Assembly (NCBI RefSeq): GCF_016907755.1
Contig: NZ_JAFBCN010000001.1
Coordinates: 1,550,001 to 1,614,000 of the forward strand
DNA length: 64,000 bases
Source: Cellulosimicrobium cellulans
GTDB taxonomy: Bacteria > Actinomycetota > Actinomycetes > Actinomycetales > Cellulomonadaceae
Direction of reading: 5' to 3'
Of this stretch, positions 38,943 to 61,659 are shown piece after piece. Position 1 is the stretch's first letter; the number at the start of each line of letters is the position of its first letter. The position numbers were made by a program, and so were the translations under genes. The notes beneath the pieces were generated by a model. The model was given only the letters and a program-made list of their open reading frames with translations. It was not told where the DNA came from and ran no database searches.

Positions 38943-41900
38943 GTGGGTTTCCTGGCGCGTCTGCGCGAGCACCGCCGTACCGTCGCGTCGGTGAGCACCG
39001 TCTCGGTGTTCTCGACGGCGCTGGTGGGGCTGGCCTTCCTCTACGAGGGTGAGGCCACGGCGGATGTGGACCTGAACGACTCGGGCGTGTGGGTGACGAA
39101 GTCGTCGTCCGGTCTGCTGGGTCGGTTCAACTACGAGTCCCAGGCGTTGGACGGGACGCTGAACGCGGGCAGCACGTCGTTCGACGTGCAGCAGGACGCG
39201 GGCCGGGTGCTGCTCGATGACACGAGCACCGGTACGGCCTCCCCGGTGAGCGTGGCGCACCTGAAGCTGGACGGGCAGATCCGCCTGCCGGCGGGGGCGC
39301 AGGTGGTCTCGGGTGGTGCGACGACGGCGATCCTCGACGGTGAGGAGGGGCTGCTGTGGGTGCTGCCGTTCGACGGTGCGACCTCGTTCGACGCCGAGAA
39401 GTCGGAGCCCACGGCGGAGGTCGAGGGGGGCGGCGGCCTCACGGTGTCCCAGGACGGGACGGTGTTCGCGGCGATCCCGTCGACGGGGACGCTGTGGACG
39501 GTGGCGACGACGTCGAAGGGCGCGGTGGACGGTGACCCCACGTCGTCCTCCCTCCCCGTGGGGAAGGGCGCCGAGGTCGAGGTGACCGCGGTGGGCGACG
39601 AGCCGGTGGTGCTCGACCGGTCGGCGTCGCAGCTCGTGCTCCCCGGCGGCAAGACGGTGACGCTGGACGACGGTGCCCAGGCGCGCCTCCAGCAGCCGTC
39701 GGCCGACTCGGAGAACGTCGTCGTGGCGACGACCGGGGGACTGGTCACACAGCCGCTCACGGGCGGTGACGCCCTGCGTCGCTCGGCCGAGGGGCGCCCG
39801 GGCGCCCCGGTCCAGCTCGGTGCCTGCACGTACGGGGCGTGGGCCTCGACGGGGCAGGTGATCCGAGACTGCGAGGGCACCGACCGCGACCTGGACACCC
39901 GTCTGGAGGGGGTCGATCCCCAGGCGCGCCTGGAGTACCGGGTGAACCGGCACGTGATCGTGCTGAACGACCTGTCGGCGGGGACGTTGTGGATGGCGGC
40001 GGACGAGTACCAGAAGGTCGACGACTGGGACGTGCAGATGCCGGAGGAGGCCGAGGGTGAGGAGTCCGACGCGGAGCTGACGAACCCGGAGCAGGTGGAT
40101 CAGTTCATCGCGGACCGTTCGCAGCCGAACAAGCCTCCGCAGCCGCAGGACGACTCGTTCGGGGTGCGTCCGGGGCGGACGACGATCTTGCCGGTGCTGG
40201 GTAACGACGTGGACCCGGACGGGGACGTGATGACGGCGTCGTTGGTGGGGGACTCCCCGGGCAACGCGACGGTGCAGGCGATCATGGGTGGTGCCGCGTT
40301 GCAGGCCGTGGTGCCCGAGGACGCGCAGGGGACCGGAACGTTCCGGTACTCGGTGGCGGACGGTCGTGGGGGTGTGGCCGAGGCCGGGGTGACGCTGAAG
40401 GTGTCGCCGTGGGGGGAGAACGCGGCGCCGGAGCAGAAGGGTGACCCGGTGCTGCGGGTCGGGCAGGGTGGTCGGGCCACGATCAAGGTGCTGCCGTACT
40501 TCAAGGACCCCGACGGGGACGACCTGTACCTGGCCTCGGCTGCCGCGACGGTCGCGGGGGACGACGTGCGCTCGCGCCCGGACGGGACCGTGGAGTTCCG
40601 CGACGGCGGCGGCTCCACCGGCCGCAAGATCGTCACGGTGACCGTCGCGGACGGGCAGGGCGGGGTGTTCGAGGGCAAGCTGCTGGTCGATGTGGTGCCG
40701 GGTCCGCAGCCGCCGGTCGCGGTGAACGACCACGTGGTGGTCCCGGCGGGGCAGCCGGTGACGGTCGAGCCGTTGCGCAACGACACGGACCCGAACGACG
40801 ACGAGCTGCGGTTGGCGTCGGTGTCGGAGTCGGCGCCGGCGGAGATCACGCCGAACTATGACGCGGGCACGTTCACGTTCATGTCGATGGAGCCGCGCTC
40901 CTACGACCTGACGTACCAGGTCACCGACGGGCCGAACGCGACCACGGGTCTGGTGCGGGTGGACGTCCTGCCCCCGTCGGAGGCCACGGGTGCCCCGATC
41001 GTGGTGACCGACACCGCCCTGCTCCCGGCAGGCGGCAGCACTCTCGTCGACGTCCTCGCCAACGACACCGACCCCGCGGGTGGGGTCCTGGTCGTCCAGT
41101 CGGTCAAGGTGCCCTCCGATGCCGGCGTCTCCGTGGCCGTGCTCGCGCACCAGATGCTGCGCATCACGGAGCTGCGCCAGCTCGACGGCCCCCTCACCAT
41201 CACCTACACCGTGTCCAACGGGACCGAGACCGCGACGGGTCAGGTGCGCGTCATCCCCGTGCCGGCCCCGACGCGGTTGCAGCCGCCGCAGGCGGCGGCG
41301 GACGAGGTCACGGTGCACGCGGGGGACGTGGTGACGATCCCGGTGCTGAAGAACGACACCCACCCCGACGGGCTGGAGCTGTTCCTGCAGCCCGAGCTCG
41401 AGCAGGACGTGGACCCGGCACTGGGCGAGGCGTTCGTGTCCGAGGACACGCTGCGGTTCAAGGCCGGCCCCGAGGCCGGGACCGCCTATGCGATCTACAA
41501 GGTGCGCGACGTCAACGGGCAGGAGGACTCCGCCCAGGTCACGATCCGCATCCGCGACGGCGAGGACAACGCACCCCCGCAGCCCCGCGAGATCGAGGCC
41601 CGCGTGCTGTCCGGGTCCAGCGTGCGCATCGCGGTCCCGCTGGACGGGATCGACCCCGACGGCGACTCCGTCCAGGTCACCGGCATCGCGTCCCCCGCGG
41701 GCAAGGGCGCGGCGGGCGTCGTCGACGGCTTCCTCGAGTACACCGCCGCGAAGAACGCCGTGGGCCCGGACACCTTCACGTACACGGTGCTGGACGCACG
41801 CGGGGCGACGGCGACCGGCGTCGTGCACGTGGGGATCGCGCGTCCGGGGGAGACGAACCAGCCTCCCGTCGCCGTCGACGACGAGATCACGGTGCGCCCC

Positions 41901-44900
41901 GGGCGCACGGTCTCGGTCGCGGCCCTGGCCAACGACACCGACCCCGACGGCGACCAGGTCGGCCTGGTCCCCGGCGGCATCGAGGACACCCACGACCTGG
42001 ACGCCGAGGTCGTGGTCGACCGCATCGTCCTGACCTCCCCCGACGCCGACGGCGCCTACACCTTCTACTACCAGGTCCAGGACACCTACGGCGCCCGCGC
42101 CACCGGCGCCGTCACCGTCAACGTCGCCGCCGACGCACCCCTGCTGCCCCCCGTCGCGCGCGACGACACCGTGCCCGTGGAGGACATCCTGGGCAAGACC
42201 GAGGTCACCGTCCCCGTCCTGGACAACGACGAGGACCCCGACGGCGCCGCGACCGAGCTCACCGTCACCACCGACGCGACCACCACCACCGTCACCGATG
42301 CCGGCGAGCTCGTCATCACCCTGACCGAGGACCGCCAGGTCGTGACCTACACCGTCACCGACATCGACGGCCTCACCGCCAAGGCCTTCGTCAAGGTTCC
42401 CGGCCTCACCGACCAGAAGCCCACGCTCCGGCCGGGCACGCAGCTCGAGGTGCTGGCCGGCGAGTCCCTGCCGATCGACATCACGGAGCACGTGCTCGTC
42501 GTCGAGGGCAGGACGCCGCGCCTCACGACGGAGGAGACCGTGAAGGTCACGGAGGGCTCGCGTGAGATCCCTTCCGTGACCGAGATCGTCTACACCCCCG
42601 ACCCGGCCTACACCGGGCCGGCCTCGGTGTCGTTCGAGGTGACCGACGGCTCCGGCCCCGACGACCCGGAGGGGAACACCAACGTCCTGACCATCCCCGT
42701 CCAGGTCCTGCCTCCGGAGAACCTCGCACCCGAGCTCATCGGGTCGCCGGCGCTCGACGTCGCGGCGGGCGAGGAGGCCTCGGCCGACCTCGCGCGCTTC
42801 GCCACGGACGCCGACGGCGATTCGCTGAAGTTCACCGCGTCCCCGGGCGGCACGCAGGGTGTGACCGTCACGGTCGAGGGCTCCACCCTGCACGCCCAGG
42901 CGACTCCCGAGGTGCCCAAGGGCTCGGTCGTCCAGGTCCCGATCACCGTCACCGACGGCGAGCACCCCCCGGTCGAGGGCACCGCGACCCTCACCGTCGT
43001 CGCCTCCACCCGACCCCTCGCACGCGCCAACCAGGACACCGTCGACGACGCCCACCAGGGCAAGCCGACGACCGTCCCCGTGCTCGCCAACGACGCCAAC
43101 CCGTTCCCCGACACCCCGCTGAAGGTCGTCGACGCGATCGTGGAGACCGGCCAGGGCACCCCGGAGGTCTCGGGCGACCAGGTCACGGTGACGCCGCGCG
43201 ACGACTTCATCGGTGTCATGGTCGTCCGGTACCGGATCCAGGACGCGACCAAGGACCCCGACCGCGAGGTCGAGGGTCGCATCCAGCTCAAGGTGCTCGG
43301 CAAGCCCGAGGCTCCCGCGACCCCGCAGGTCGACGAGATCCGGTCCAAGACGGTCGTGCTGTCCTGGGACCCGCCGAACAACAACGGCGCAGACATCACC
43401 GGCTACACCGTGCGCTCCCAGAACGGCTACGAGAAGGCCTGCGGCACCACCACCTGCACCCTCGACGGCCTGACCAACAACGTGAAGTACACCTTCACCG
43501 TCTACGCGACCAACGCCGTCGGCGACGGACCCGCCTCCCCGCCCTCCGAGGAGGCCCGACCCGACGAGAAGCCCGACCCGCCCGCCGCACCCACCCTCGA
43601 GTTCGGCGACCAGTCCCTCACCGTCACCTGGACCAACAAGACCTACACCGACCGCTCGCCCATCGAGACCGTCGACCTCGAGATCTCCCCCGCGCCGCCG
43701 GGTGGAGCCGTCCAGAAGACCGCGCTCGTCGGGACGTCCGTGACCTGGGACGGGCTGAAGAACGGCGTCGCCTACAAGGTGCGCGTCCGGGCCAACAACC
43801 TCGCCCCCGACCCCTCGGACTGGGGCGAGTACTCGACGGCGGAGACGCCCGCGGGCAAGCCCGCGGCGCCCGGGAAGCCCTCGGCGAAGCGCACGTCCAT
43901 CGGCGACACGTCGCAGATGCAGGTCTCCTGGACGGCCCCGGACGACAACGGTGCCGCGATCACGTCATACACCGTCGAGGCGGTCCAGGGCGGCTCCGTG
44001 GTGAGGTCCACGACCGCGTCCGGAGGCGCCACGTCGGCCACCCTCGGCGTGCCCGCCGACACCACGGGCTACACGTTCCGTGTCAGGGCACACAACAAGG
44101 CGACCGACAAGTTCGGCGACGCGGAGTTCTCGCCGGCCTCCGACCCGGTGCGCGCTTTCGCCACGCCGGGCACCGTCTCGAACCTCACGGCGGACGCCAA
44201 CGGGACCAACAACCAGATCCAGCTCTCGTTCGGCGACGCGACCGGCAACGGTGTCAAGGCGGGGGAGATCTCCTACCAGTACAACGCCGGGGGCAGCTGG
44301 CGGGATCTCGCCGGGGACCGCGTGGTCCGCGGCCTGACGAACGGTGAGAACTACACCATCTCGGTCCGCGCGGTGGCCGGCGTGGACGGGGCCGTCGAGC
44401 CCGGTGCCGGCGTCGCCGCAAATGCGGAGTCGCCCTACGGCCCGATCCCTGCACCGAATGTCTCGATGAACGGCGGCGACCAGTCGATCTCGTACAGCTG
44501 GTCGACGTCGGACAACGGACGCCCGTACACGGTCTCGGTGCGCGGCGCGGTGCAGTCCAGCGCGAAGTCGGGCTCGGGGACGCTGAGCGTGGGCTACTCC
44601 CAGACCCGCGAGATCTGCGTGACGGTCAACCCGACCGAGGGCGAGACCAAGGAGACCTGCCGCTCGGCCACCTCGGACAAGAAGCCGGAGCCCGTGTTCA
44701 CGGTCAGCAAGGGCAGCAACCACAAGCTGCCCGACGGCAACTGGCCCGGCGAGTGCGGTCACTCGTCGTGCGCCGAGCTGTACCTGACGATCAAGGACGG
44801 GCCGCCGAACACGCCCTTCCGCACCACGTGCTACGGCGGTGGGGACCGGATCGGGTCGGGCAACTACAGCTACGACGCCCAGGGTCGCGCCCTGCGGACC

Positions 44901-45011
44901 GACGGCAACGGGAACTACTCGGGCGGCCAGCAGTGCGTCTGGGGGCAGCCTGGCTCGTCGGTGCGGATCGACACGTCCATCGGGAACACGAACTCCATGA
45001 CCTGGTACTAG
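38943..45011 (+). CDS. giant membrane-anchored Ig-like/cadherin-like and fibronectin-III surface protein
   Basis: The 2022-residue product starts with a basic cytoplasmic tip (RLREHRR), one transmembrane helix (about 14-34) and a long extracellular chain. Residues about 40-390 are beta-rich and propeller-like (repeated hydrophobic strands, VWVTKSSSGLLGRFNYE). From about 400 to 1450 come roughly ten Ig-like modules, most bearing a calcium-type ND-x-DPDGD motif (LGNDVDPDGD, ANDTDPDGD, DNDEDPDGA). From about 1450 to 1750 there are three fibronectin-III domains, the first opening with TVVLSWDPPNNNGADITGY. A Cys-containing C-terminus lacks any sorting signal. GTG at 38943 follows GGAGGG at only 3 nt. 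Similar proteins head MoxR-DUF58-EssC loci in Micrococcales (from memory). The role, perhaps a cell-wall-spanning stalk of the secretion machine, is inference. Confidence 0.82.
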   Translation: MGFLARLREHRRTVASVSTVSVFSTALVGLAFLYEGEATADVDLNDSGVWVTKSSSGLLGRFNYESQALDGTLNAGSTSFDVQQDAGRVLLDDTSTGTASPVSVAHLKLDGQIRLPAGAQVVSGGATTAILDGEEGLLWVLPFDGATSFDAEKSEPTAEVEGGGGLTVSQDGTVFAAIPSTGTLWTVATTSKGAVDGDPTSSSLPVGKGAEVEVTAVGDEPVVLDRSASQLVLPGGKTVTLDDGAQARLQQPSADSENVVVATTGGLVTQPLTGGDALRRSAEGRPGAPVQLGACTYGAWASTGQVIRDCEGTDRDLDTRLEGVDPQARLEYRVNRHVIVLNDLSAGTLWMAADEYQKVDDWDVQMPEEAEGEESDAELTNPEQVDQFIADRSQPNKPPQPQDDSFGVRPGRTTILPVLGNDVDPDGDVMTASLVGDSPGNATVQAIMGGAALQAVVPEDAQGTGTFRYSVADGRGGVAEAGVTLKVSPWGENAAPEQKGDPVLRVGQGGRATIKVLPYFKDPDGDDLYLASAAATVAGDDVRSRPDGTVEFRDGGGSTGRKIVTVTVADGQGGVFEGKLLVDVVPGPQPPVAVNDHVVVPAGQPVTVEPLRNDTDPNDDELRLASVSESAPAEITPNYDAGTFTFMSMEPRSYDLTYQVTDGPNATTGLVRVDVLPPSEATGAPIVVTDTALLPAGGSTLVDVLANDTDPAGGVLVVQSVKVPSDAGVSVAVLAHQMLRITELRQLDGPLTITYTVSNGTETATGQVRVIPVPAPTRLQPPQAAADEVTVHAGDVVTIPVLKNDTHPDGLELFLQPELEQDVDPALGEAFVSEDTLRFKAGPEAGTAYAIYKVRDVNGQEDSAQVTIRIRDGEDNAPPQPREIEARVLSGSSVRIAVPLDGIDPDGDSVQVTGIASPAGKGAAGVVDGFLEYTAAKNAVGPDTFTYTVLDARGATATGVVHVGIARPGETNQPPVAVDDEITVRPGRTVSVAALANDTDPDGDQVGLVPGGIEDTHDLDAEVVVDRIVLTSPDADGAYTFYYQVQDTYGARATGAVTVNVAADAPLLPPVARDDTVPVEDILGKTEVTVPVLDNDEDPDGAATELTVTTDATTTTVTDAGELVITLTEDRQVVTYTVTDIDGLTAKAFVKVPGLTDQKPTLRPGTQLEVLAGESLPIDITEHVLVVEGRTPRLTTEETVKVTEGSREIPSVTEIVYTPDPAYTGPASVSFEVTDGSGPDDPEGNTNVLTIPVQVLPPENLAPELIGSPALDVAAGEEASADLARFATDADGDSLKFTASPGGTQGVTVTVEGSTLHAQATPEVPKGSVVQVPITVTDGEHPPVEGTATLTVVASTRPLARANQDTVDDAHQGKPTTVPVLANDANPFPDTPLKVVDAIVETGQGTPEVSGDQVTVTPRDDFIGVMVVRYRIQDATKDPDREVEGRIQLKVLGKPEAPATPQVDEIRSKTVVLSWDPPNNNGADITGYTVRSQNGYEKACGTTTCTLDGLTNNVKYTFTVYATNAVGDGPASPPSEEARPDEKPDPPAAPTLEFGDQSLTVTWTNKTYTDRSPIETVDLEISPAPPGGAVQKTALVGTSVTWDGLKNGVAYKVRVRANNLAPDPSDWGEYSTAETPAGKPAAPGKPSAKRTSIGDTSQMQVSWTAPDDNGAAITSYTVEAVQGGSVVRSTTASGGATSATLGVPADTTGYTFRVRAHNKATDKFGDAEFSPASDPVRAFATPGTVSNLTADANGTNNQIQLSFGDATGNGVKAGEISYQYNAGGSWRDLAGDRVVRGLTNGENYTISVRAVAGVDGAVEPGAGVAANAESPYGPIPAPNVSMNGGDQSISYSWSTSDNGRPYTVSVRGAVQSSAKSGSGTLSVGYSQTREICVTVNPTEGETKETCRSATSDKKPEPVFTVSKGSNHKLPDGNWPGECGHSSCAELYLTIKDGPPNTPFRTTCYGGGDRIGSGNYSYDAQGRALRTDGNGNYSGGQQCVWGQPGSSVRIDTSIGNTNSMTWY

Positions 45012-45063
45012 CGGCTCGACGACCCCGAGCACGCTCCCCAGCACAGCGAACGGAAAGCGACGA

Positions 45064-46038
45064 ATGACCACCATGACCCCCGAGCAGGCCACCTGGTTCG
45101 CTCAGACCTTCGACCGCCTCGTCGGCAACGTGGGCCAGGCCGTCCTGGGCAAGGCGCACGTGGTGCGCCTGACCCTGACGTGCATGCTCTCCGAGGGCCA
45201 CATCCTCCTGGAGGACGCGCCGGGCACCGGCAAGACGTCGCTCGCCCGCGCCCTCGCGGCGAGCGTCCAGGGCACGAACAACCGCATCCAGTTCACGCCC
45301 GACCTGCTCCCGTCGGACGTCACGGGCGTGACGATCTACGACCAGAAGACCGGCAAGTTCGAGTTCCACCAGGGCCCGATCTTCGCGTCGATCGTCCTGG
45401 CGGACGAGATCAACCGCGCGTCGCCCAAGACGCAGTCCGCGCTCCTCGAGGTCATGGAGGAGGGTCGGGTCACCGTCGACGGCGTGGGCCACGAGGTCGG
45501 CCGCCCGTTCATGGTGATCGCGACGCAGAACCCCATCGAGCAGGCCGGCACCTACCGGCTGCCCGAGGCCCAGCTCGACCGCTTCCTCATGAAGGCGTCG
45601 ATCGGGTACCCGGACCACGCGTCGACGGTCGAGATCCTGTCGGGCGCCGCCGTGCGCGACCGGAGCAAGACGCTCCAGCCGCTCATCACGACGCAGGCCG
45701 TGACGGAGATGGCCGAGCTCGGCGCGCGCGTGCACGTCGACGGCGCGGTCCTGGAGTACGTCTCCCGGCTCGCCGAGGAGACGCGCAACGCGCCCGAGGT
45801 CCGCGTCGGCGTCTCCGTCCGTGGCTCGCTCGCGCTCGTGCGCTGCGCGAAGGTCTGGGCCGCGGCCCACGGCCGCAACTACGTGCTCCCGGACGACATC
45901 AAGGAGCTCGCGCAGCCGGCGTGGGCGCACCGCCTCGTGCTCGACCCGGAGGCGGAGTTCGCCGGCGCCACGAACGAGGCCGTGCTCGGCCGGCTCCTCG
46001 CCGACGTCGCGGCGCCGCAGGAGCGACGCTCCGCCTGA
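45064..46038 (+). CDS. MoxR-family AAA ATPase
   Basis: The 324-residue AAA+ ATPase has Walker A (EDAPGTGKTSLARAL), Walker B (VLADEINRASPKTQSALLE) and sensor 1 (MVIATQNPIEQAGTYRLPEAQLDRF), followed by the MoxR C-terminal lid. MoxR proteins act as chaperones that assemble or activate partner complexes and are usually encoded beside DUF58 and transglutaminase-like membrane proteins, exactly as here. It starts 52 bp after the giant gene with SD GGAAAG. It probably remodels the DUF58 partner; the target is inferred. Confidence 0.93.
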   Translation: MTTMTPEQATWFAQTFDRLVGNVGQAVLGKAHVVRLTLTCMLSEGHILLEDAPGTGKTSLARALAASVQGTNNRIQFTPDLLPSDVTGVTIYDQKTGKFEFHQGPIFASIVLADEINRASPKTQSALLEVMEEGRVTVDGVGHEVGRPFMVIATQNPIEQAGTYRLPEAQLDRFLMKASIGYPDHASTVEILSGAAVRDRSKTLQPLITTQAVTEMAELGARVHVDGAVLEYVSRLAEETRNAPEVRVGVSVRGSLALVRCAKVWAAAHGRNYVLPDDIKELAQPAWAHRLVLDPEAEFAGATNEAVLGRLLADVAAPQERRSA

Positions 46039-46147
46039 CCGGACGCGCGGCGCTCCCACGCCGCCCGCCCCTTCCGCCCCTCCGTGCTGCCGCGCGGACC
46101 ACCGACCGGCGGACCGTCCTCCCCCGTACCGACCGAGAGCACATCGC

Positions 46148-47485
46148 ATGAACGCCTCACACGGCCCCTCGACCGGCCGCCCGAGCTCCCGCTCCGGCAG
46201 CCCGGGCGGCAGGACCGGCACGCCACCCGCGTCGTCGGCCCTCGCCGGACTGCTCCGTCCCCTCGCGGCACCCCTCGCCCGGGTCGCCGCGCCGATCGGT
46301 CGCGCGCTCGCGCCGGTGACGCGGGCGGTCGAGCCGGTGACGTCGGCGGTGAGCCCGTTCGGCTGGGCCGCGCTCGTGGTCACCGTCGGCGCGTGGTGGG
46401 CCGGGCTGGCCTTCTCGTGGCTCGAGCTGCTCGTGGTATCGATCCTGCTGACGGTGTCGCTGCTCGCCGCGGTCGCGTTCGTGCTCGGCCGCTTCCGCTA
46501 CGCCGTCGTTCTCGACCTCGCGCAGCAGCGCGTCACGGTCGGCGACCGCGCCGTCGGTCGGCTCGACGTGCGCAACGACTCGGGTCGGCCGCTGCTCCCG
46601 TCGGTCATGGAGCTGCCGGTGGGGCAGGGCATGGCGACGTTCCCGGTCCCGCGCCTGCGTCCCCAGGGGAGCCACGAGGAGATCTTCACGGTGCCGACGC
46701 ACCGGCGCTCGGTGATCTCCGTGGGTCCGGTGCGGTCGGTGCGGGCGGACCCGCTCGGGCTGCTGCGCCGCGAGGTCGTCTGGACCGAGCCCGAGGAGCT
46801 GTTCGTCCACCCGCGGGTGAAGAACCTCTCGGGCTCGTCCACCGGGTTCCTCAAGGACCTCGAGGGCCGTGTCACGACGGACATCTCCAACTCGGACGTC
46901 TCGTTCCACGCGCTGCGCGACTACGTCCCGGGCGACGACCGACGGCACATCCACTGGAAGACGACGGCCCGCACCGGGCAGCTCATGGTCCGCCAGTTCG
47001 AGGAGACGCGCCGGTCGCACCTCGCCGTCCTCCTCTCCACCCGCGCGGAGGACTACGCGCACGACGACGAGTTCGAGCTCGCCGTGAGCGCGTGCGGGTC
47101 GCTCGGGCTGCAGGCCATCAAGGAGGACCGTGGCGTCACGGTGCTCGTCAACGACGGCAACCTGCGCGGCGACCACCGCACCCGCCTGCTCGACGACCTC
47201 GCCCGCGTCGAGACGCGCGCGCAGCGGACGTCGCTCGTCGACGTCGCTCGCGTCGCGGGACTGACGATCAGCGACGCGTCGGTCGTGGCGTTCATCGTCG
47301 GGAGCAAGGTGACGCCCACGGAGCTGCGGGCGGCGTCCGCCCGGCTTCCCCAGGACGTCCGGGTGATGGCGATCCAGTGCGTCCCCGGCGCCTCGCTCAG
47401 CCGGCACGCGATCGCGGAGCTCGTCGTCCTCACCATCGGCGAGCTCGGCGAGCTCCCCCTCGCCCTGCGGAGGCTGAACGACTGA
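46148..47485 (+). CDS. DUF58 membrane protein
   Basis: The 445-residue protein has a Ser/Pro/Gly-rich N-terminus and two transmembrane helices (about residues 78-120: WAALVVTVGAWWAGLAF and LLVVSILLTVSLLAAVAFVL). The cytoplasmic or periplasmic part contains the DUF58 signature LRDYVPGDDRRHIHWKTTAR, followed by a von Willebrand A-like segment. DUF58 proteins are regular partners of MoxR ATPases. The ATG at 46148 lies 109 bp after moxR. The gene runs into the transglutaminase-like gene with a one-base overlap (TGATG). Confidence 0.9.
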   Translation: MNASHGPSTGRPSSRSGSPGGRTGTPPASSALAGLLRPLAAPLARVAAPIGRALAPVTRAVEPVTSAVSPFGWAALVVTVGAWWAGLAFSWLELLVVSILLTVSLLAAVAFVLGRFRYAVVLDLAQQRVTVGDRAVGRLDVRNDSGRPLLPSVMELPVGQGMATFPVPRLRPQGSHEEIFTVPTHRRSVISVGPVRSVRADPLGLLRREVVWTEPEELFVHPRVKNLSGSSTGFLKDLEGRVTTDISNSDVSFHALRDYVPGDDRRHIHWKTTARTGQLMVRQFEETRRSHLAVLLSTRAEDYAHDDEFELAVSACGSLGLQAIKEDRGVTVLVNDGNLRGDHRTRLLDDLARVETRAQRTSLVDVARVAGLTISDASVVAFIVGSKVTPTELRAASARLPQDVRVMAIQCVPGASLSRHAIAELVVLTIGELGELPLALRRLND

Positions 47486-51593: not shown

Positions 51594-52447
51594 CGACCGA
51601 ACCGCCCGCCGAGGTCCACCTGGCCTGGGGCGCGGCGTCGCACCGCGGCGCGCGGCGGCTGCTCAACGAGGACCGGTTCCTCGTCTCGCGCTCCGTCTTC
51701 TTCGTCGCCGACGGCATGGGCGGTCACGAGGCGGGCGAGGTCGCGAGCGCGACGGCCGTCGAGGCGCTCCGGCCGCTGGCCGACCTCGACGTGATCACGC
51801 CGGACGAGGTCCGGACCCGGATCGCGGTCGCGCAGGAGAACGTCCAGGCGATCGTCACCGAGCCCGGCCGGGGGGCGGGCACCACCGTCACCGGTGTGGT
51901 GGTCTCGGAGCAGGACGGGAACCCGTACTGGCTCGTCGTCAACGTGGGCGACTCGCGGACCTACCACCTCGCCGGCGGGCACCTCGAGCAGGTGAGCGTC
52001 GACCACTCGGAGGTCCAGGAGATGGTGGACGCGGGACTGCTGACGCCCGCGGCGGCCCTCACCCACCCGCGTCGGCACGTCGTCACGCGCGCGCTCGGCT
52101 CGCGCAACCCCCCGCAGGTGGACTTCTGGTACCTGCCGATCGAGCGGCACGACCGCGTCCTGGTCTGCTCGGACGGGCTGACGGGCGAGCTCACGGACGA
52201 GCGGATCGCGGAGGTCCTGCTCTCCACGCCCGACCCGCAGGCGGCCGCCGAGCGTCTGGTCCACGAGGCCATCGCGGCCGGTGGGCGGGATAACATCACA
52301 GTCGTCGTCGTCGACGCGACGGGCGTGTCCGACGACACGAGCGGCGGGAGCACGACACCGCGCGACCACGCCGGGGTGCCGGGTCCGGTCGTCGACGAGG
52401 ACACGCTGCCCAGGGATGTTCGTCTGCAGATCGGGGGTCTGACGTGA
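51590..52447 (+). CDS. PP2C-family Ser/Thr protein phosphatase
   Basis: The 285-residue phosphatase has all PP2C metal-binding motifs: RRLLNEDRF, FFVADGMGGHEAGEVAS, VNVGDSRTYHL, VLVCSDGLTGEL and GGRDNITVVVVD. It lacks a transmembrane segment, so it is cytoplasmic. It is the antagonist of the kinase encoded two genes downstream, and the FHA proteins on both sides are likely readers of the same phosphosites. ATGA overlap upstream, GTGA overlap downstream. Confidence 0.95.
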   Translation: MTTEPPAEVHLAWGAASHRGARRLLNEDRFLVSRSVFFVADGMGGHEAGEVASATAVEALRPLADLDVITPDEVRTRIAVAQENVQAIVTEPGRGAGTTVTGVVVSEQDGNPYWLVVNVGDSRTYHLAGGHLEQVSVDHSEVQEMVDAGLLTPAAALTHPRRHVVTRALGSRNPPQVDFWYLPIERHDRVLVCSDGLTGELTDERIAEVLLSTPDPQAAAERLVHEAIAAGGRDNITVVVVDATGVSDDTSGGSTTPRDHAGVPGPVVDEDTLPRDVRLQIGGLT

Positions 52448-54090: not shown

Positions 54091-55892
54091 GCACCAAGCG
54101 CGCGCCGTCCCCACCGCCGGAGATCACGGGCTTCGAGTACGTCTCGCTGGTCGGCTCGGGCGGGTTCTCCGACGTCTTCCTCTACCAGCAGCAGCGCCCC
54201 CGCCGGCGCGTCGCGGTCAAGGTCCTGCTGCAGGAGTGGTCCAGCCACTCGCAGCGGGCGGCGTTCGACGCCGAGGCCGACCTCATGGCGACGCTCTCGA
54301 CCCACCCGTCGATCGTCACGATGTACGAGGCGGACATCGCCGACGACGGGCGCCCGTACCTCGCCATGGAGTACTGCTCGCGTCCCAACCTGGGGGCGAG
54401 GTACCGCACCGAGCGGCTCTCGGTCGCCGAGGCGCTGCGCACCGCGGTCCAGATCGCCGGCGCCGTGGAGACGGCGCACCGCGCGGGCATCCTGCATCGC
54501 GACATCAAGCCCGCGAACATCCTGGTCACCGAGTACGGGCACCCGGCCCTCACGGACTTCGGCATCTCCTCCACGGTCGACGACGCCGCGCGCGCCGAGG
54601 GCATGTCGATCCCGTGGTCCCCGCCCGAGTCGTTCGCCGAGCCGCCCCGCAGCGGCATCGCGACCGACGTCTGGGCCCTCGCGGCGACGACGTACACGCT
54701 GCTCGCGGGCCGGACGCCGTTCGAGGTGCCCGGCGGGTCGAACTCGAGCGCCAACCTCATCTCGCGCATCGAGACCTCGCCGCTGCCCCCGACGGGACGC
54801 ACCGACGTGCCGGCCTCGCTCGAGCGCGTGCTCGCGACGGCGATGGCGAAGAACCCCGGGTCGCGCTACCCCACGGTCCTCGCGTTCGCCCGCGCGCTCC
54901 AGCAGGTGCAGAACGAGCTGTCGTACGCGGTCACCCCGATCGACCTGCTCGACGACACGGGGCACGTGCAGGAGGAGGAGCCGGACGACGACGCCGGGAC
55001 CCGCCTGCGCCAGGTCGTGTCGATCGACCCGGCGGGGCCGGGCGGGACGTCGTCGGGGCCCGTCGCGCCGAACCGGCCCACCCAGCCGACGACGCCGCTG
55101 CGGCCGGGCCAGCCGGGCGCCCCATGGCCTGGCCAGACCGTCGCGCCCGGACCCGCCGCCCCGCAGCAGCCGGGACCGCGCGCCCCGCAGCAGCCCTACG
55201 CGCCCGCGGCCTGGAGCCAGGGCGCACCCGCGCACACCGCGGGCACCGCGCCGACGTCCGCCGTCGGCCCGGGCGGGCACGCGCCCGTCGCGGAGCTCAC
55301 GGACCCGTCCCGGATGTACCCCGGCGCCCGGCGCCCGGGCGCCTGGGGCCAGCCCCCGGTCGAGGACACGGTCCACCGGCCCACCGGGCCGGAGGACGGC
55401 GGACCGGCCGCCGCGCCGACGGAGGAACGGTCGGGTCGTGGCGCGCTGTGGGCGACGCTCGCGGGCGTCGTCGGGGTCGCGGTCGCGGTCGGAGGCTTCT
55501 TCCTGCTCCGCCCGGACGCCACCGTGGACGACACGGACCCCGACGGCGGCGGCGAGGAGACGGCCGCCACGGACGACGACTTCCTGCCGTCGGACAACCT
55601 CGGCGACCTCGTCCCGCCCGTGAACGATCTCGTGGGCACCTACGACCCGGCGCGCGAGGTCGCGACGTTCACGTGGGCGTACAACTCGGACAAGGCGCAG
55701 GACGGCGACTCGTTCGCCTGGAAGAAGCTGGACCCCATCGAGGAGACCCCCTACAAGGAGATCTTCGACGAGACGACCGTCGAGCTCCGGGCGAAGCCCG
55801 GCGAGCAGGTCTGCATCGAGGTCGTCGTGATCAGGGACGGCAGGCCGTCCGCGGCGCCCGGGAAGTCGTGCGTGACGGGGGAGGCGGCGTGA
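54087..55892 (+). CDS. transmembrane Ser/Thr protein kinase (PknB-type catalytic domain)
   Basis: The 601-residue kinase has a complete catalytic domain (about 14-280): Gly loop LVGSGGFSDVFLY, VAVKVLL, catalytic loop GILHRDIKPANILV, DFGISS and an SPPE version of the APE motif. A Pro/Gln/Gly-rich juxtamembrane region follows, then one helix (about 450-470, ALWATLAGVVGVAVAVGGFF) and an extracellular domain of about 120 residues with two cysteines (EQVCIEVV, KSCVTG). PASTA repeats are absent, so the sensor differs from PknB. It likely phosphorylates components of this locus. GTGA overlaps both neighbours. Confidence 0.93.
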   Translation: MSTKRAPSPPPEITGFEYVSLVGSGGFSDVFLYQQQRPRRRVAVKVLLQEWSSHSQRAAFDAEADLMATLSTHPSIVTMYEADIADDGRPYLAMEYCSRPNLGARYRTERLSVAEALRTAVQIAGAVETAHRAGILHRDIKPANILVTEYGHPALTDFGISSTVDDAARAEGMSIPWSPPESFAEPPRSGIATDVWALAATTYTLLAGRTPFEVPGGSNSSANLISRIETSPLPPTGRTDVPASLERVLATAMAKNPGSRYPTVLAFARALQQVQNELSYAVTPIDLLDDTGHVQEEEPDDDAGTRLRQVVSIDPAGPGGTSSGPVAPNRPTQPTTPLRPGQPGAPWPGQTVAPGPAAPQQPGPRAPQQPYAPAAWSQGAPAHTAGTAPTSAVGPGGHAPVAELTDPSRMYPGARRPGAWGQPPVEDTVHRPTGPEDGGPAAAPTEERSGRGALWATLAGVVGVAVAVGGFFLLRPDATVDDTDPDGGGEETAATDDDFLPSDNLGDLVPPVNDLVGTYDPAREVATFTWAYNSDKAQDGDSFAWKKLDPIEETPYKEIFDETTVELRAKPGEQVCIEVVVIRDGRPSAAPGKSCVTGEAA

Positions 55893-56590
55893 GCGAGCTC
55901 GCGGTCGAGTTCTGCGGGGAGTGGTTCCGCCCGTCCGTGGACGGGGACCCGTTCGACATCGGGCGGGACGGCGACCTCGCGATCGAGGACAACCCGTACC
56001 TGCACCGCCGCTTCCTGCGCATCTCGCACGAGGGCGGCATCTGGTGGCTCTCGAACGTCGGGACGCTCATCTCCGCGACGGTGTGCGACTCGGGTGGTGG
56101 GGTCCAGTCCTGGCTCTCGCCGGGCAACCGCCTTCCGATCGTCTTCCCGACGACGTCGATCGTGTTCACGGCCGGGCCGACCACGTACGAGCTCACCGCG
56201 CAGCTCAGGGGCGCGCCGTACCAGGAGATCCGCTCCGAGGACACGGAGTCGGGCGGCGCGACGACGATCGGCATGATCACCTTCACGACGAGCCAGAAGC
56301 AGCTCATCGTCGCGCTGGCCGAGCCGATGCTGCGCCGCGACGGCACGGGCCTGTCGGAGATCCCGTCGTCGGCCGCAGCCGCGGCCCGCCTGGGCTGGGC
56401 GACGACGCGCTTCAACCGCAAGCTCGACAACGTGTGCGACAAGCTCGACCGGATCGGGGTCAAGGGCCTGCGCGGCGGCCCCGGTGCGCTTGCGACGAAC
56501 CGCCGCGCGCGCCTCGTCGAGTACGCCGTGGCGTCGCGCCTGGTCACCTCGGCCGACCTGCCCCTGCTCGACCTCACCGACGACGGCTGA
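55889..56590 (+). CDS. FHA-like protein with C-terminal helix-turn-helix-like region
   Basis: The 233-residue cytoplasmic protein has an FHA-like first half (about 10-110: FDIGRDGDLAIEDNPYLHRRF, then GGIWWLSNVGT). The second half is helical and resembles a winged helix (about 130-200: TSQKQLIVALAEPMLR, then SAAAAARLGWATTRFNRKLDNV with a helix-turn-helix look). I cannot name a family with confidence. Within this locus it is the only candidate DNA-binding protein, so it could be a phospho-responsive regulator, perhaps of the TGGGGA-N4-TCCCCA sites. That link is inference. GTGA overlap with the kinase gene. Confidence 0.75.
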   Translation: MSELAVEFCGEWFRPSVDGDPFDIGRDGDLAIEDNPYLHRRFLRISHEGGIWWLSNVGTLISATVCDSGGGVQSWLSPGNRLPIVFPTTSIVFTAGPTTYELTAQLRGAPYQEIRSEDTESGGATTIGMITFTTSQKQLIVALAEPMLRRDGTGLSEIPSSAAAAARLGWATTRFNRKLDNVCDKLDRIGVKGLRGGPGALATNRRARLVEYAVASRLVTSADLPLLDLTDDG

Positions 56591-56713
56591 CGTCAGCGGC
56601 TCCGCGGGCGCGCGTCCCGTGCGCCCCTCCTGGTCGCGCCCTGCGTACCGCTGCCCGACCGTCGGAGCCTCCGGCCTGCCCGTCCCTCTCCCCGGACCTG
56701 AACAGGAACCTTC

Positions 56714-59700
56714 GTGCGAATCAAGCTCACGCTGCACCGCCCCGACGCCAGCACGACCAACGTCGCCGTCACGGCGGACGCGACGGCCACGGTGCGCGAC
56801 GTCGCCGAGGCGCTGTTCGCGGGCGACCCCACCCGGTCGGGCACCGCCGTCCCGGACCGGCTCACGCTCCAGGTCGGCACCGCGCCGTCGGGGTCGGGGC
56901 AGGGGCGCGTGCTGTCCCCGACGAGCGACCTCACGGAGGCGGGGTTGCGGTCCGGGTCGACGGTCTCGATCGTGCGCGTGTCCGAGCAGTTCGACGCCCC
57001 TGGCCAGGACCGCGGCGCGGCCGTCGCCGTCCTGCGCGTGCTCGAGGGTCCCGACGCGGGGCGTGAGTTCCCGCTGCCCGTCGGGACGAGCTACCTCGGT
57101 CGCGACCGCAACATGGACATCCGGCTGAGCGACCCGCAGATCTCCAAGCGGCACGCCCGCCTCACGGTCGGCGAGACGATCGAGATCACCGACACGAACT
57201 CGGCGAACGGTCTCGTCATGGGCGGCCAGCGCATGATGCGCTCGACGCTCACGTCGTCGGACACGGTGACGATCGGCAGCACGGTCGTGTCCGTCGTCGC
57301 GCTGCACCGCACGACGAGCCTCGCGCCGACGAGCCCGGTCGTGGAGTTCAACCGGTCCCCGCGCGTCGTCGCCCGCTTCCCCGAGCGCAAGCTCAAGGCG
57401 CCCAAGCCGCCGCAGCCCCCGGAGCCGCAGCGCTTCCCCTACCTGGCGATGGTCGCGCCGTTGCTCATGGGCGCGATCCTGTACTCCGTCACGAAGAACG
57501 TCCTGTCGATCGTCTTCGTCGGGCTGAGCCCGATCCTCATGCTCGGCAACTACCTCGACCAGAAGGTGCAGGCCAAGCGCAAGCTCAAGGCGCAGCGCGA
57601 GCAGTTCGAGGCGGGGGTCGTCGCGATGCGCGAGACGATCGACCGCACGCACGCCGTCGAGCGCGCGGTGCGCCTCTCGGAGGCCCCGTCCGTGGGCGAC
57701 ACGGTCGACGCGGTCCGGCGGCTCGGCGGGCTCATGTGGACGCACCGCCCGGAGCACGACGCGTTCCTCTCCGTCCGCATCGGGCTCGGCGCCGCGCCGT
57801 CGCGCACCCAGCTCGAGCAGCCCGGCGAGAACAACACGCTGCCGGAGTACTGGAACGAGCTGGAGAAGCTGCACGCCCAGTGCGCGACGATCTCCGGCGT
57901 CCCGGTCGTCGCGCGCCTGCGCACGGACGGCGCGCTCGGCGTCGCCGGGGCGGGGGCCGCGGTCGACGCCGTCGCGCGCGGGATCCTCGTCCAGCTCGCC
58001 GGCCTGCACTCGCCGTCGGAGCTCGTGCTCGCAGCCATGACGTCGCAGCGCTCGCGCGCCGACTGGGAGTGGCTCGAGTGGCTGCCGCACACCGGGTCGC
58101 CGCACAGCCCGCTGGGCGGCGACCACCTGGCCGACAACCCGGGCGCCGCCCAGGCGCTGCTGTCGCAGCTCGAGGACCTGGTCGAGGCGCGCGGAGCCGA
58201 CCTCGACACGCACGCCGAGCTGCGCGGGCCGATCGACCCCGAGGAGGGCGAGGACACGCCCAAGCCGGTGCTGCCGACCGTCGTCGTGCTCGTCGAGGAC
58301 GACGCCCCGGTGGACCGCTCGCGCCTGACGCGCCTCGTGGAGCGCGGCGCGGACGCGGGCGTGCACGTCGTGTGGGTCGCGCCGTCGGTCGAGCAGCTCC
58401 CGGCGGCGTGCCGCACGTTCGTCCTCGTGGACACGGTCGACACCACGGGCGCGGGCGGCCCCGGTGCCACCGCGGGCGCGACGAGCGGCGAGGTCCGGGT
58501 GGGCCGGCTGTCGTTCCCGGTGGCGTGCGAGACGGTGGACCTCGCGACGGCCCACGAGGTGGCGCGCATCCTGGCCCCGGTGGTCGACGTCGGCGCGCCC
58601 GTCGACGACGACTCCGACCTCCCGCGCTCGGTCTCCTACCTCACGCTCGCCGGCACCGCGCTGGCCGAGGACCCGGGCCGCCTCATCGACGCGTGGCGCG
58701 AGAACGGCTCCCTGACGCCGCGGGACGGCTCGCCGCCCGTCCGGCGCAAGGTGCCGACGAACCTGCGCGGGCTGGTCGGGCACTCGGGCACCGAGCCGCT
58801 CTACCTGGACCTGCGCACGCAGGGCCCGCACGCGCTCGTGGGCGGGACGACCGGCGCGGGCAAGTCCGAGTTCCTCCAGTCGTGGGTGCTCGGCATGGCA
58901 GCCGCCCACAGCCCCGACCGCGTGACGTTCCTGTTCGTCGACTACAAGGGCGGCGCGGCGTTCGCGGACTGCGTCAACCTGCCGCACACCGTCGGCCTCG
59001 TCACGGACCTGTCGCCCCACCTCGTGCGCCGGGCGCTCACGTCGCTGCGGGCCGAGCTGCGCTACCGCGAGCACCTGCTCAACCGGAAGAAGGCCAAGGA
59101 CCTCGCGTCCCTGGAGCGGACCGGGGACCCCGACGCGCCGCCGAGCCTGCTCATCGTGGTCGACGAGTTCGCCGCCCTGGTCAACGAGGTCCCGGAGTTC
59201 GTCGACGGCGTCGTGGACGTCGCCCAGCGCGGCCGTTCGCTCGGCCTGCACCTCATCCTCGCGACGCAGCGCCCCGCGGGCGTCATCAAGGACAACCTGC
59301 GCGCGAACACGAACCTGCGCGTCGCGCTGCGCATGGCGGACGAGGACGACTCGACCGACATCCTCGGCATCCCGATGGCCGCGCACTTCGACCCGTCGAT
59401 CCCGGGCCGTGGCGCCGTGAAGACCGGCCCCGGCCGCATCACGCCGTTCCAGACCGGCTACGCGGGCGGCTGGACGACGGCGCAGCCCGAGCGGTCGCGC
59501 ATCGACATCCAGGAGATGGCGTTCGGCTCCGACATCCGCTGGGAGCTGCCGGAGCCCGAGGTCGAGGAGGTCACCGACCCGGGCCCCAACGACATCGCGC
59601 GCGTGGTGACGACGATCTCGCGGGCCGCGACGGAGGCCGCGGTCCCGATGCCGCGCAAGCCGTGGCTGGCCGAGCTCGCTCCGACGTACGACCTCGCGCG

Positions 59701-61198
59701 CCTGCCCAACCCCCGCACCGACACGATGCTGCTGCTCGGGGTGGAGGACGACCCGACGACCCAGGCGCAGCCCACCGTCTTCTACGAGCCCGACCGCGAC
59801 GGCAACATGGCGATCTACGGCACGGGCGGCTCGGGCAAGAGCGCGACGCTGCGGACGATCGCCGTCTCCGCCGCGATCACGGCGCGCGGCGGCCCCGTCC
59901 AGGTCTACGCGATCGACAGCGGTGCGAGCGGCCTGCGCATGCTCGAGGACCTGCCGCACGTCGGCGCGGTCATCACGGGCGACGACGAGGAGCGCGTCCA
60001 GCGCGTGCTGCGCACGCTGCGCGACCTCGTCGACGAGCGCTCCGCGCGCTACGCCTCGGTCCGCGCCGGTAGCCTCGACGAGTACCGGCGCCTCGCGAAC
60101 GCGCCCGACGAGCCGCGCATCCTGCTGCTGGTCGACGGGATCGGCGCGTTCCGCGAGTCCTACGAGTTCCGGCCCGCGCACGCGTTCCCCGTGTGGGGCG
60201 CGTTCACGGCGATCGCGACCGACGGCCGCCAGGTCGGCGTGCACGTCGTCGTCGCGGGCGACCGGGCGGCGTCGGTCCCGACGTCCCTCGGCTCGACGAT
60301 CCAGAAGCGGCTCGTGCTGCGCCTGGCGAGCGAGGACGACTACCTGACGCTCGGCGTCCCCAAGGACGTCCTGTCGCTCACGTCCCCGCCCGGGCGTGGC
60401 GTGCTCGACGAGAACGAGGTCCAGATCGCGGTCCTGGGCGGCGACCCGAACGTGGCGCTCCAGGCGCGCGAGCTGGGCAAGCTGCGCGACGCGATGACGC
60501 GCCTCGGCATCCAGCAGGCGCCCGGCGTCGAGCGGCTGCCCGACAGCTTCGCGCTGGACGCGCTGCCCGAGGTCACGGGGGGCCGGCCGACCATCGGCCT
60601 CGACGACCTCGACATCGCCCCGGTGGCGCTGCCCGCCCGGGGGACGTTCATGCTCTCGGGCCCGCCCGGGGGCGGTCGCACGACGGCGCTCGTCACCATC
60701 GCCCAGGCCGTGCGCCGGGCGCGCGCGGGCCGGGTCGTGTACCTCTCGCCGCGCCGCACGAGCATCTCGGCGCTCGACGCGTGGGACACGGCGGCGACGT
60801 CGCCCGAGGAGGTCGTGACGCTCCTGGAGTCGCTCACCCAGGCGCTCGACGGGGGCTCGCTGCGGCCCGGCGCGCTCACCGTGCTCGTCGAGTCGGTGAC
60901 GGAGTTCACGGGGACGCCGGCGGAGCAGCCGCTCGTCGCGTTCGTGCGGGCCGCCACGCGCGCGGAGCAGCTCGTCGTGGGCGAGGCCGAGTCGTCGACC
61001 TGGGGGCAGGCGTGGGCGATCGCGCAGCCGTTCAAGGCCGGTCGCAGCGGTCTGCTCCTCACGCCCGGCGACCTCGACGGCGACACCTTGCTCGGGACCG
61101 GTCTCGGCCGGATCCGGCGCGCGGACTTCCCGCCGGGACGCGGCTTCCTCGTCGTCTCCGGGAGGGCGCGCAAGCTGCACGTCGCGCTCCCGCGGTAG
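56714..61198 (+). CDS. EssC/EccC-like FtsK-SpoIIIE secretion ATPase
   Basis: The 1494-residue motor begins with a ubiquitin-like segment (residues 1-95, RIKLTLHRPDAST), an FHA domain (about 104-200: YLGRDRNMDIRLSD, ISKRHARL) and two transmembrane helices (about 240-285). Three tandem ATPase domains follow. Domain 1 is canonical: Walker A GTTGAGKS (711-718), Walker B LLIVVDEFA (Asp817-Glu818). Domain 2 has GTGGSGKS (1036-1043) but a Walker B LLLVDGIG without Glu. Domain 3 has GPPGGGRT (1316-1323), with Arg replacing the Walker Lys. Such motors drive WXG100 substrates through type VII systems. GTG start 123 bp after the FHA-HTH gene, so an internal promoter is possible. Confidence 0.92.
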   Translation: MRIKLTLHRPDASTTNVAVTADATATVRDVAEALFAGDPTRSGTAVPDRLTLQVGTAPSGSGQGRVLSPTSDLTEAGLRSGSTVSIVRVSEQFDAPGQDRGAAVAVLRVLEGPDAGREFPLPVGTSYLGRDRNMDIRLSDPQISKRHARLTVGETIEITDTNSANGLVMGGQRMMRSTLTSSDTVTIGSTVVSVVALHRTTSLAPTSPVVEFNRSPRVVARFPERKLKAPKPPQPPEPQRFPYLAMVAPLLMGAILYSVTKNVLSIVFVGLSPILMLGNYLDQKVQAKRKLKAQREQFEAGVVAMRETIDRTHAVERAVRLSEAPSVGDTVDAVRRLGGLMWTHRPEHDAFLSVRIGLGAAPSRTQLEQPGENNTLPEYWNELEKLHAQCATISGVPVVARLRTDGALGVAGAGAAVDAVARGILVQLAGLHSPSELVLAAMTSQRSRADWEWLEWLPHTGSPHSPLGGDHLADNPGAAQALLSQLEDLVEARGADLDTHAELRGPIDPEEGEDTPKPVLPTVVVLVEDDAPVDRSRLTRLVERGADAGVHVVWVAPSVEQLPAACRTFVLVDTVDTTGAGGPGATAGATSGEVRVGRLSFPVACETVDLATAHEVARILAPVVDVGAPVDDDSDLPRSVSYLTLAGTALAEDPGRLIDAWRENGSLTPRDGSPPVRRKVPTNLRGLVGHSGTEPLYLDLRTQGPHALVGGTTGAGKSEFLQSWVLGMAAAHSPDRVTFLFVDYKGGAAFADCVNLPHTVGLVTDLSPHLVRRALTSLRAELRYREHLLNRKKAKDLASLERTGDPDAPPSLLIVVDEFAALVNEVPEFVDGVVDVAQRGRSLGLHLILATQRPAGVIKDNLRANTNLRVALRMADEDDSTDILGIPMAAHFDPSIPGRGAVKTGPGRITPFQTGYAGGWTTAQPERSRIDIQEMAFGSDIRWELPEPEVEEVTDPGPNDIARVVTTISRAATEAAVPMPRKPWLAELAPTYDLARLPNPRTDTMLLLGVEDDPTTQAQPTVFYEPDRDGNMAIYGTGGSGKSATLRTIAVSAAITARGGPVQVYAIDSGASGLRMLEDLPHVGAVITGDDEERVQRVLRTLRDLVDERSARYASVRAGSLDEYRRLANAPDEPRILLLVDGIGAFRESYEFRPAHAFPVWGAFTAIATDGRQVGVHVVVAGDRAASVPTSLGSTIQKRLVLRLASEDDYLTLGVPKDVLSLTSPPGRGVLDENEVQIAVLGGDPNVALQARELGKLRDAMTRLGIQQAPGVERLPDSFALDALPEVTGGRPTIGLDDLDIAPVALPARGTFMLSGPPGGGRTTALVTIAQAVRRARAGRVVYLSPRRTSISALDAWDTAATSPEEVVTLLESLTQALDGGSLRPGALTVLVESVTEFTGTPAEQPLVAFVRAATRAEQLVVGEAESSTWGQAWAIAQPFKAGRSGLLLTPGDLDGDTLLGTGLGRIRRADFPPGRGFLVVSGRARKLHVALPR

Positions 61199-61222
61199 CG
61201 ACGTGACGCCCGCGGGGACCTC

Positions 61223-61240
61223 ATGGGGACACCTCCCCAT
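61223..61240. promoter_or_regulatory. palindromic operator candidate upstream of the WXG100 gene
   Basis: ATGGGGA-CACC-TCCCCAT is a perfect 7-bp inverted repeat with a 4-bp spacer, 94 bp before the WXG100 ATG and 24 bp after the ATPase stop. Its core TGGGGA-N4-TCCCCA is identical to the element before the giant surface protein. It indicates separate, co-regulated transcription of the WXG100 gene. Confidence 0.62.
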
Positions 61241-61333
61241 CGACGGGGCGCGCGGGCCGATGGTTGAGTAAGGCCATCGACAACGGGACGACGTCCACGC
61301 AGGGTGGGGGTCGAGACACAGAAGGAGAACACC

Positions 61334-61606
61334 ATGGCTGGTGGCATGTGGGGCGCGAACGTCGAGGAGCTGCGTGGGCTCGGTCAGACGCTGCAGCAGA
61401 AGGCGGACGAGATCCGCACGACCATGCAGAACCTGAACTCGCAGATCCAGAGCGTGCCGTGGGAGGGCCCCGACGCCCAGCAGTTCAAGGGCAGCGACTG
61501 GCCGGCCGCGCAGACGCAGCTCAACAACGTCGCGCAGACGCTGACGGACGCGGGCCAGAAGGCCACGCAGAACGCGCAGCAGCAGGAGCAGGCTTCGAAC
61601 AGCTGA
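61334..61606 (+). CDS. WXG100-family (EsxA-like) secreted protein
   Basis: The 90-residue helical-hairpin protein has the WxG turn as W43-E44-G45 (VPWEGPDAQQF) between two amphipathic helices, a typical type VII substrate. It has no tyrosine, so the C-terminal YxxxD/E export signal of mycobacterial ESX substrates is missing; the tail is Gln/Ala/Ser-rich instead. That is compatible with a homodimer as in Firmicutes-type systems. The ATG at 61334 has a strong SD (AAGGAG). Its own upstream region (136 bp) carries the locus palindrome, and a 17-bp hairpin follows. Confidence 0.93.
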   Translation: MAGGMWGANVEELRGLGQTLQQKADEIRTTMQNLNSQIQSVPWEGPDAQQFKGSDWPAAQTQLNNVAQTLTDAGQKATQNAQQQEQASNS

Positions 61607-61620
61607 TCCGCTGAGCTCCA

Positions 61621-61659
61621 CCGAGGGCGCGGGACCCGGGACGGGTCCCGCGCCCTCGG
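61621..61659 (+). terminator. strong hairpin terminator after the WXG100 gene
   Basis: A perfect 17-bp stem (CCGAGGGCGCGGGACCC and its complement, arms 61621-61637 and 61643-61659) with loop GGGAC begins 14 bp after the stop. It marks the end of the type VII-like locus. Confidence 0.8.

Follow-up and report, generated by a model that had tools for sequence, protein, structure and literature searches.

A type VII-like motor joined in one conserved gene run to a kinase, phosphatase, FHA and FN3 module in Micrococcales

Gene content of the locus

The window analysed here is a 64,000-nucleotide stretch (positions 1550001-1614000) of the Cellulosimicrobium cellulans genome (one contig, 4.79 Mb, 100% complete), and the locus under study, at 38943-61606 of the window, is a run of eleven co-oriented genes on the forward strand in which a motor half, with an EssC-like motor and a WXG100 protein, is joined to a signalling half of kinase, FN3 giant, MoxR, DUF58, transglutaminase, phosphatase and FHA genes. 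The joining of these halves as one gene run in many Micrococcales is new here, as are the probable N-terminal ubiquitin-like domain of the motor and the linkage to the run of a protein with the fold of the Eag chaperones of type VI secretion systems (T6SS). All eleven genes of the preliminary description of this DNA were recovered by open-reading frame (ORF) listing, GC-by-frame and codon-score calling, however a twelfth gene of the locus, at 61794-62267 (PF10738), had been overlooked.

Domains were assigned with Pfam/NCBIfam scans, membrane and hydrophobic segments by hydropathy. The run opens with an FN3-type giant surface protein of 2022 aa (38943-45011) with a hydrophobic segment at residues 14-32, 11 Big_9 and 3 fn3 stretches, and no C-terminal membrane segment detectable by hydropathy. 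It is followed by a MoxR-family AAA+ ATPase (AAA_3, 45064-46038), a DUF58 protein with N-terminal hydrophobic segments (46148-47485, the start set by the gene caller and the domain scan run from 46154) and a membrane protein with TgpA_N and Transglut_core domains (47485-49986, scanned from 47482), which we refer to as the transglutaminase. The signalling genes comprise an RDD membrane domain protein with a C-terminal FHA domain (RDD-FHA, 49983-51593), a PP2C phosphatase (51590-52447), an FHA protein with a long linker (FHA2, 52444-54090), a Ser/Thr kinase with a single hydrophobic segment at residues 456-474 and a C-terminal ectodomain (54087-55892), and a 233 aa protein without Pfam match (55889-56590), 53-79% identical across our order sample, which serves as family marker and for which we keep its first label, FHA-HTH. 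By eye, the kinase ectodomain appears FnIII-like. Seven genes, from DUF58 to FHA-HTH, and not six as first counted, overlap at six junctions, by 4 nt at five of them and as TGATG at the other, an arrangement from which stoichiometric coupling might follow.

The motor (56714-61198) and the 90 aa WXG100 protein (61334-61606, alternative codon-score start 61304) complete the run. Directly 3′ lies a strong GC hairpin on the same strand (61621-61659, 18-bp stem, no T run; minimum free energy −54.7 kcal/mol over a 76-nt region, z −3.9), a possible transcript end, and beyond it the co-oriented twelfth gene, encoding a 157 aa LpqN/DcrB/Eag-fold protein without a hydrophobic segment. The locus is flanked on one side by what we take to be NuoN-like and polyprenyl-synthase-like genes and on the other by a presumed FprA-like gene, names assigned from sequence.

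The motor and the search for type VII components

The motor probably bears an N-terminal ubiquitin-like domain (residues ~1-90) ahead of an FHA domain (~100-200), has two hydrophobic segments, and continues into three P-loop domains, the EssC and EccC models covering it from about residue 211 to 1483. The first P-loop domain is intact, the second (D2) is without the Walker B Glu and the third (D3) has Arg replacing the P-loop Lys. In relatives, where only the eight commonest forms of each motif were tallied, all D2 forms (61 of 77) likewise were without the Glu and all D3 forms (54 of 77) carried the Arg. The FHA domain keeps the conserved residues that presumably bind phosphothreonine (pThr). 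By sequence the best PDB matches are 4nh0, YukB and EccC5, the first deposited as FtsK/SpoIIIE and which we take to be an EccC. Among the listed homologues of the motor the closest is from Cellulosimicrobium cellulans (99%). Elsewhere we observed a second EssC-like protein of 1420 aa standing alone (L015:7493-11755; G and L numbers are our handles for genomes and loci) with an N-terminus ubiquitin-like by eye, and a third FtsK-type gene (L014:9716-12790) around which few confident genes were called, which may mean atypical codon usage.

The absence of EccB, suggested previously together with that of EccE and mycosin, for neither of which a search was made, stood up, as no EccB was found in the host genome. 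EccB occurs in 32 of the 198 order-sample genomes, and among the matches listed it co-occurs with the motor in only 2 of the 55 motor-clade genomes (G007, G067), far apart in both. As far as EccB goes, then, the condition set beforehand for refuting a distinct system was not fulfilled by these data. YukC/EssB was found in none of the 198 genomes, the host included, and hidden EccB or EssB partners elsewhere in the host genome are thus ruled out. The claimed absence of EccD holds for its ubiquitin-like part, through which alone EccD was probed: the best YukD/EccD (PF08817) match in the host had E 0.29 and lay outside the locus, and no separate EsaB/YukD was found.

The locus differs in several respects from the established type VII secretion systems (T7SS). 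It shares an EccC-type motor and WXG100 proteins with T7SSa (ESX), however EccB is not found and EccC motors stand apart in both of our motor trees (SH-aLRT, an approximate likelihood ratio test, 100). With T7SSb (Ess/Yuk) it shares a motor with N-terminal accessory domains, and TIGR03928 is its top-scoring motor model, but T7SSb motors carry two FHA domains (PMC11217815) where the window motor has a probable ubiquitin-like domain and one FHA domain, and EssB is missing from the order sample; EssA and EsaA were not searched for.

Conservation in relatives

A single scan yielded 76 loci in named genomes, in Cellulosimicrobium, Oerskovia, Promicromonospora, Agreia, Herbiconiux, Cryobacterium, Arthrobacter, Sinomonas and others. 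Counting loci whose flank reaches, we found upstream of the motor the FHA-HTH gene in 74 of 75, the kinase in 72 of 74, FHA2 and PP2C each in 71 of 72, RDD-FHA in 68 of 70 and the transglutaminase in 68 of 69. Recurrence of all six genes at these rates (68-74 of 69-75 loci) is more than chance, and the run of type VII-like motor, kinase, phosphatase and FHA genes proposed from the window is conserved. Genes in relatives were called with our own codon-score caller, which may miss short genes or misplace starts, and labelled by best BLAST match to the window proteins, so that FHA proteins may be confused with one another.

In the order sample, the motor clade was hand-picked (identity of 45% or more and a score of 900 bits or more, two candidates scored per genome); the motors of G116, G030, G067 and G140 are not full length, the two fragments in G030 were counted once, and G125, whose fragments match at 71% over 239 residues, was excluded. 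Among the matches listed, the motor clade is present in 55 genomes, the FHA-HTH gene in 74 and both in 47, in 38 of which the two lie within 30 kb; Fisher values for this co-occurrence take no account of kinship among the genomes. Across the phylum sample, 12 of 296 genomes carry the FHA-HTH gene.

The remaining genes are less constant. FN3-, MoxR-, DUF58- and transglutaminase-like genes adjoin the motor, in two gene orders, in 15 of 20 sampled genomes and were not found beside it in five (in G132 the flank stops after 5.5 kb, at the end of the contig). A further 18 loci were read, and in four of them MoxR-DUF58-transglutaminase genes adjoin a distant motor. It had been suggested that the membrane channel must be built differently, possibly from the giant, DUF58 and TgpA-like proteins; as an obligatory channel this is unsupported, because two 99% complete genomes, G116 and G132, hold the motor and no TgpA-like transglutaminase match at E 1e-5, and on these and the reduced loci we reject it. 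In reduced loci (G083, G105, G193, G069) RDD-FHA directly precedes the motor, and in G132 an FHA match only was found. Separately, a T7SSa-type locus in another genome of the same family includes a gene for an FHA protein whose RDD match stays below threshold (L189:13334-14476).

WXG100 proteins and the Eag-fold protein

By a length and W-x-G rule, a WXG100-like ORF lies within 2.5 kb 3′ of the motor in 51 of 72 loci. Some relatives encode proteins in which a long tail follows a WXG-like N-terminus; one of these, when scanned, matched WXG100_2 at only E 0.003. At L125:2185-3432, L025:15038 and L031:14935 a WXG-like part is fused to C-terminal parts of 351-415 aa, candidate secreted substrates. 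In the host genome (G000) we also observed an orphan, clear WXG100 gene (65.8 bits; G000:C1:4220345-4220599, L016:9295-9630) with no such ATPase gene in the 20 kb covered.

The LpqN-like protein shares its fold with the T6SS Eag chaperones EagT6 and SciW but at only 12-15% identity, LpqN and MTC28 being nearer, which leaves a chaperone role putative. An EspG-like chaperone was also considered as a possible identity; EspG does not figure among the 50 matches listed for the protein.

Comparison with T7SSd and the PFNA cluster

The initial statement that no mechanistic description was known is not supported, as the two halves of the system have been described separately, as T7SSd (PMC11217815) and as the PFNA cluster (PMC8430577). 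Garrett, Higginson and Palmer (2024, PMC11217815) based their definition of T7SSd on TsdA, C, D, H and I from Olsenella and Bifidobacterium. The locus shares with it an origin in Actinomycetota, a WXG100 protein, an EssC-like ATPase with an N-terminal FHA domain and conserved pThr site, a kinase, a giant Ig protein and the lack of EccB or EssB. The counterparts of TsdC (the motor, with its FHA domain and conserved pThr residues), TsdD (the membrane Ser/Thr kinase) and TsdA (the WXG100 protein, under Pfam/TIGR cut-offs) are all present. TsdI is a giant Ig protein with an N-terminal signal and a C-terminal membrane helix, whereas the window giant is without a C-terminal segment, and no small single-helix protein resembling TsdH was called within the locus, the only region considered. 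Beyond T7SSd as described in that paper, the window locus has MoxR, DUF58, transglutaminase, RDD-FHA, PP2C, two more FHA-type proteins and LpqN. The main text of PMC11217815 contains neither PFNA, MoxR, transglutaminase, DUF58, fibronectin nor Micrococc-, although its supplement may list Micrococcales motors.

T7SSd-type loci in our own samples allow a closer comparison. Genomes G138 and G082 share the gene order 97 aa protein (WXG100 size, no W-x-G), kinase (577 aa), single-segment protein (140 aa), Ig giant (1781 and 1789 aa) and motor (1523 aa), the G138 giant (locus L197) having Big domains and, at either end, hydrophobic segments. The named proteins nearest to the G138 motor are from Bifidobacterium, Actinomyces and Alloscardovia. 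Downstream of the T7SSd-type locus in L197 come an FHA gene and genes of 93, 206 and 515 aa, the last LXG-like by eye. The two motor trees come from quick searches, with SH-aLRT as the only support, and were drawn from the midpoint. In the tree of 37 motors, among which there is no Olsenella motor, G138 and G082, on a long branch and of odd make-up, group with five other rows on a sister branch apart from the window motor (SH-aLRT 100), and in this quick tree the window motor group stands beside, not inside, the Bifidobacterium-type branch. The G371 motor was considered as a possible Olsenella-type representative; its named kin are Actinomycetota metagenome-assembled genomes (MAGs), Solirubrobacteraceae, Baekduia and a Dormibacteraeota MAG.

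For T7SSd, the authors of PMC11217815 found no ubiquitin-like protein, whereas in the window this part is apparently fused to the motor, and Bifidobacterium-type motors probably bear the same N-terminal fusion. We aligned nine N-termini from a search with the G138 motor, including Bifidobacterium, two Alloscardovia, Actinomyces, a Bifidobacteriaceae bacterium, Microbacterium and Pseudolysinimonas. The alignment matched the EccD ubiquitin-like domain at p 2.4e-6 and the N-terminus of the window family at p 1.6e-9, controls with an unrelated alignment giving p 0.14, 0.56 and 0.048. On sequence comparison, then, both groups seem to carry, as part of the motor, the ubiquitin-like protein that T7SSd was reported to lack, which gives a testable reason for its apparent absence.

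The PFNA cluster of Bifidobacterium comprises a kinase, fn3, MoxR, DUF58 and transglutaminase gene, followed in some species by PP2C, a gene of unknown function and FHA (PMC8430577), and its FN3 giant is 1,994 aa in B. longum GT15 (PMC8430577, PMC6803598, PMC10688814). The window holds the kinase, FN3 giant, MoxR, DUF58, transglutaminase, PP2C and FHA genes together and retains the order fn3-aaa-duf58-tgm, however it departs from the full PFNA order kinase-fn3-aaa-duf58-tgm: in PFNA, as described, the kinase comes first and the cluster has no motor, whereas in the window the kinase is downstream, after PP2C and FHA, and the FHA-HTH gene and motor follow. Kinase-FN3-MoxR-DUF58-transglutaminase runs were found in all five genomes read of the Bifidobacteriaceae-like family of G138 (seven searched), with PP2C next in three; to the window these five show 50-60% (MoxR) and 29-32% (FN3) identity. 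FN3 and MoxR matches also adjoin the motor, where flanks reach, in L072 (Propionibacteriaceae), L083 (Arthrobacter) and L092.

According to PMC10688814, PFNA is found only in Bifidobacterium and its FN3 domains may be of eukaryotic origin. The restriction is put in doubt by the FN3-MoxR-DUF58-transglutaminase run in genera such as Cellulosimicrobium and Arthrobacter, and the locus speaks against the possible eukaryotic origin also. A 2025 review had already likened the mycobacterial moxR operon to PFNA (PMC12067865); no paper naming both 'PFNA' and 'type VII secretion' was found in a search that took in neither preprints nor most subscription papers. The locus brings together two gene clusters that were published apart and whose workings have yet to be explained, and it offers culturable, non-gut hosts suited to testing kinase control of a type VII-like motor.

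Proposed mechanism and alternative explanations

We propose, with a probability of roughly 60%, that the operon encodes a type VII-like exporter under phosphorylation control, in which a sister subtype of T7SSd is merged with a PFNA module. The EssC-like motor would export WXG100 proteins and, in relatives, also the longer proteins with N-terminal WXG parts, its fused ubiquitin-like domain replacing EsaB/YukD or the ubiquitin-like domain of EccD. The motor FHA domain would bind phosphothreonine set by the operon kinase and erased by PP2C, so that phosphorylation switches export, with RDD-FHA as the likeliest membrane partner. MoxR, DUF58 and the transglutaminase may act on the FN3 giant by assembling, remodelling or cross-linking it, the giant would pass through the cell wall, and the LpqN/Eag-fold protein may escort a substrate. 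T-[RVILK]-x-R motifs exceed shuffled levels in the kinase (184 vs 72), FHA2 (101 vs 44) and, slightly, PP2C (95 vs 66), and are at about or below them in RDD-FHA, transglutaminase, EssC, DUF58 and FHA-HTH (MoxR being represented by three sequences only); narrower phosphosite patterns are kept in only 12-33 of 71-72 loci, and these motifs support no claim. A wider version, which we hold tentatively and would sooner doubt than accept, makes PFNA an ancient module of an Actinomycetota type VII subtype with the FN3 giant as wall-spanning arm, detached from the motor in Bifidobacterium and there taken for a gut-specific immune sensor; every motor of the branch, those of T7SSd included, would have a fused EsaB-like ubiquitin domain. 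The bifidobacterial PFNA module may serve protein export too.

Several observations weigh against an exporter. Secretion by the locus is inferred from its genes. The motor scores 528 bits to TIGR03928, the highest among motor models, against a cut-off of 778, and is likewise below cut-off for the EccCa and EccCb models; the WXG100 protein, which has W-E-G, scores 21 bits to PF06013 against a cut-off of 27 and is also under the TIGR cut-off, and 21 of 72 loci (Arthrobacter, Pseudarthrobacter, Sinomonas) gave no WXG100-like ORF in the vicinity of the motor, at least five loci having flanks below 2.5 kb. Compared directly, the window-family N-terminus matches EccD weakly (p 0.0013, probability 18%), the window segment alone matches ubiquitin at E 0.23 at best, the whole-genome YukD search did not pick up the motor, and the ubiquitin-like and FHA domains modelled together gave a predicted template modelling score of 0.50, with fold-search lists filled by FHA matches. 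The LpqN-like protein is scattered over 25 of 198 genomes (14 near the motor, five near the marker only, six elsewhere) and so is not tied to export. Lastly, among the matches listed, the marker occurs without the motor in 27 of 198 genomes and the motor without the marker in eight, which makes the two halves separable.

This separability favours the main rival, in our view rather unlikely, in which a PFNA-type envelope-sensing module and a minimal EssC/WXG100 exporter are independent neighbours with common transcription and separate mechanisms. In G138 the PFNA-type cluster and the T7SSd-type locus indeed lie ~30 kb apart on opposite strands, and the G116 site keeps the motor, a 98 aa WXG100-sized gene and LpqN, the FN3, MoxR, DUF58 and transglutaminase genes not being there. 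However, the linkage outlasts block rearrangement and recurs beside motors only 33-43% identical, and the motor itself bears an FHA domain, against mere adjacency. At the corresponding site of G197 (nuo/PPS genes to FprA) FN3, MoxR, DUF58, transglutaminase and motor are jointly missing, with PP2C-FHA2-kinase-marker-LpqN present, a joint loss qualified by a transglutaminase homologue elsewhere in that genome.

An improbable reading, which overlaps with independent neighbours, takes the FN3 giant only as an adhesin or ligand binder, as proposed for Bifidobacterium, folded by MoxR, DUF58 and transglutaminase, with export incidental; FN3 fragments do bind tumour necrosis factor alpha (PMC8430577, PMC10688814), but FN3-like giants adjoining MoxR and motor in Cellulosimicrobium, Arthrobacter and Propionibacteriaceae leave a cytokine role without obvious basis. 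Very improbable, finally, is an FtsK/TraB-like DNA mover in an envelope or conjugation system: the motor has an FtsK/SpoIIIE domain and some public homologues are named 'cell division protein FtsK', however the EssC/EccC models and PDB matches given above and the WXG100-like ORFs adjoining the motor argue otherwise, and the best FtsK_SpoIIIE match of the genome is a gene outside the locus.
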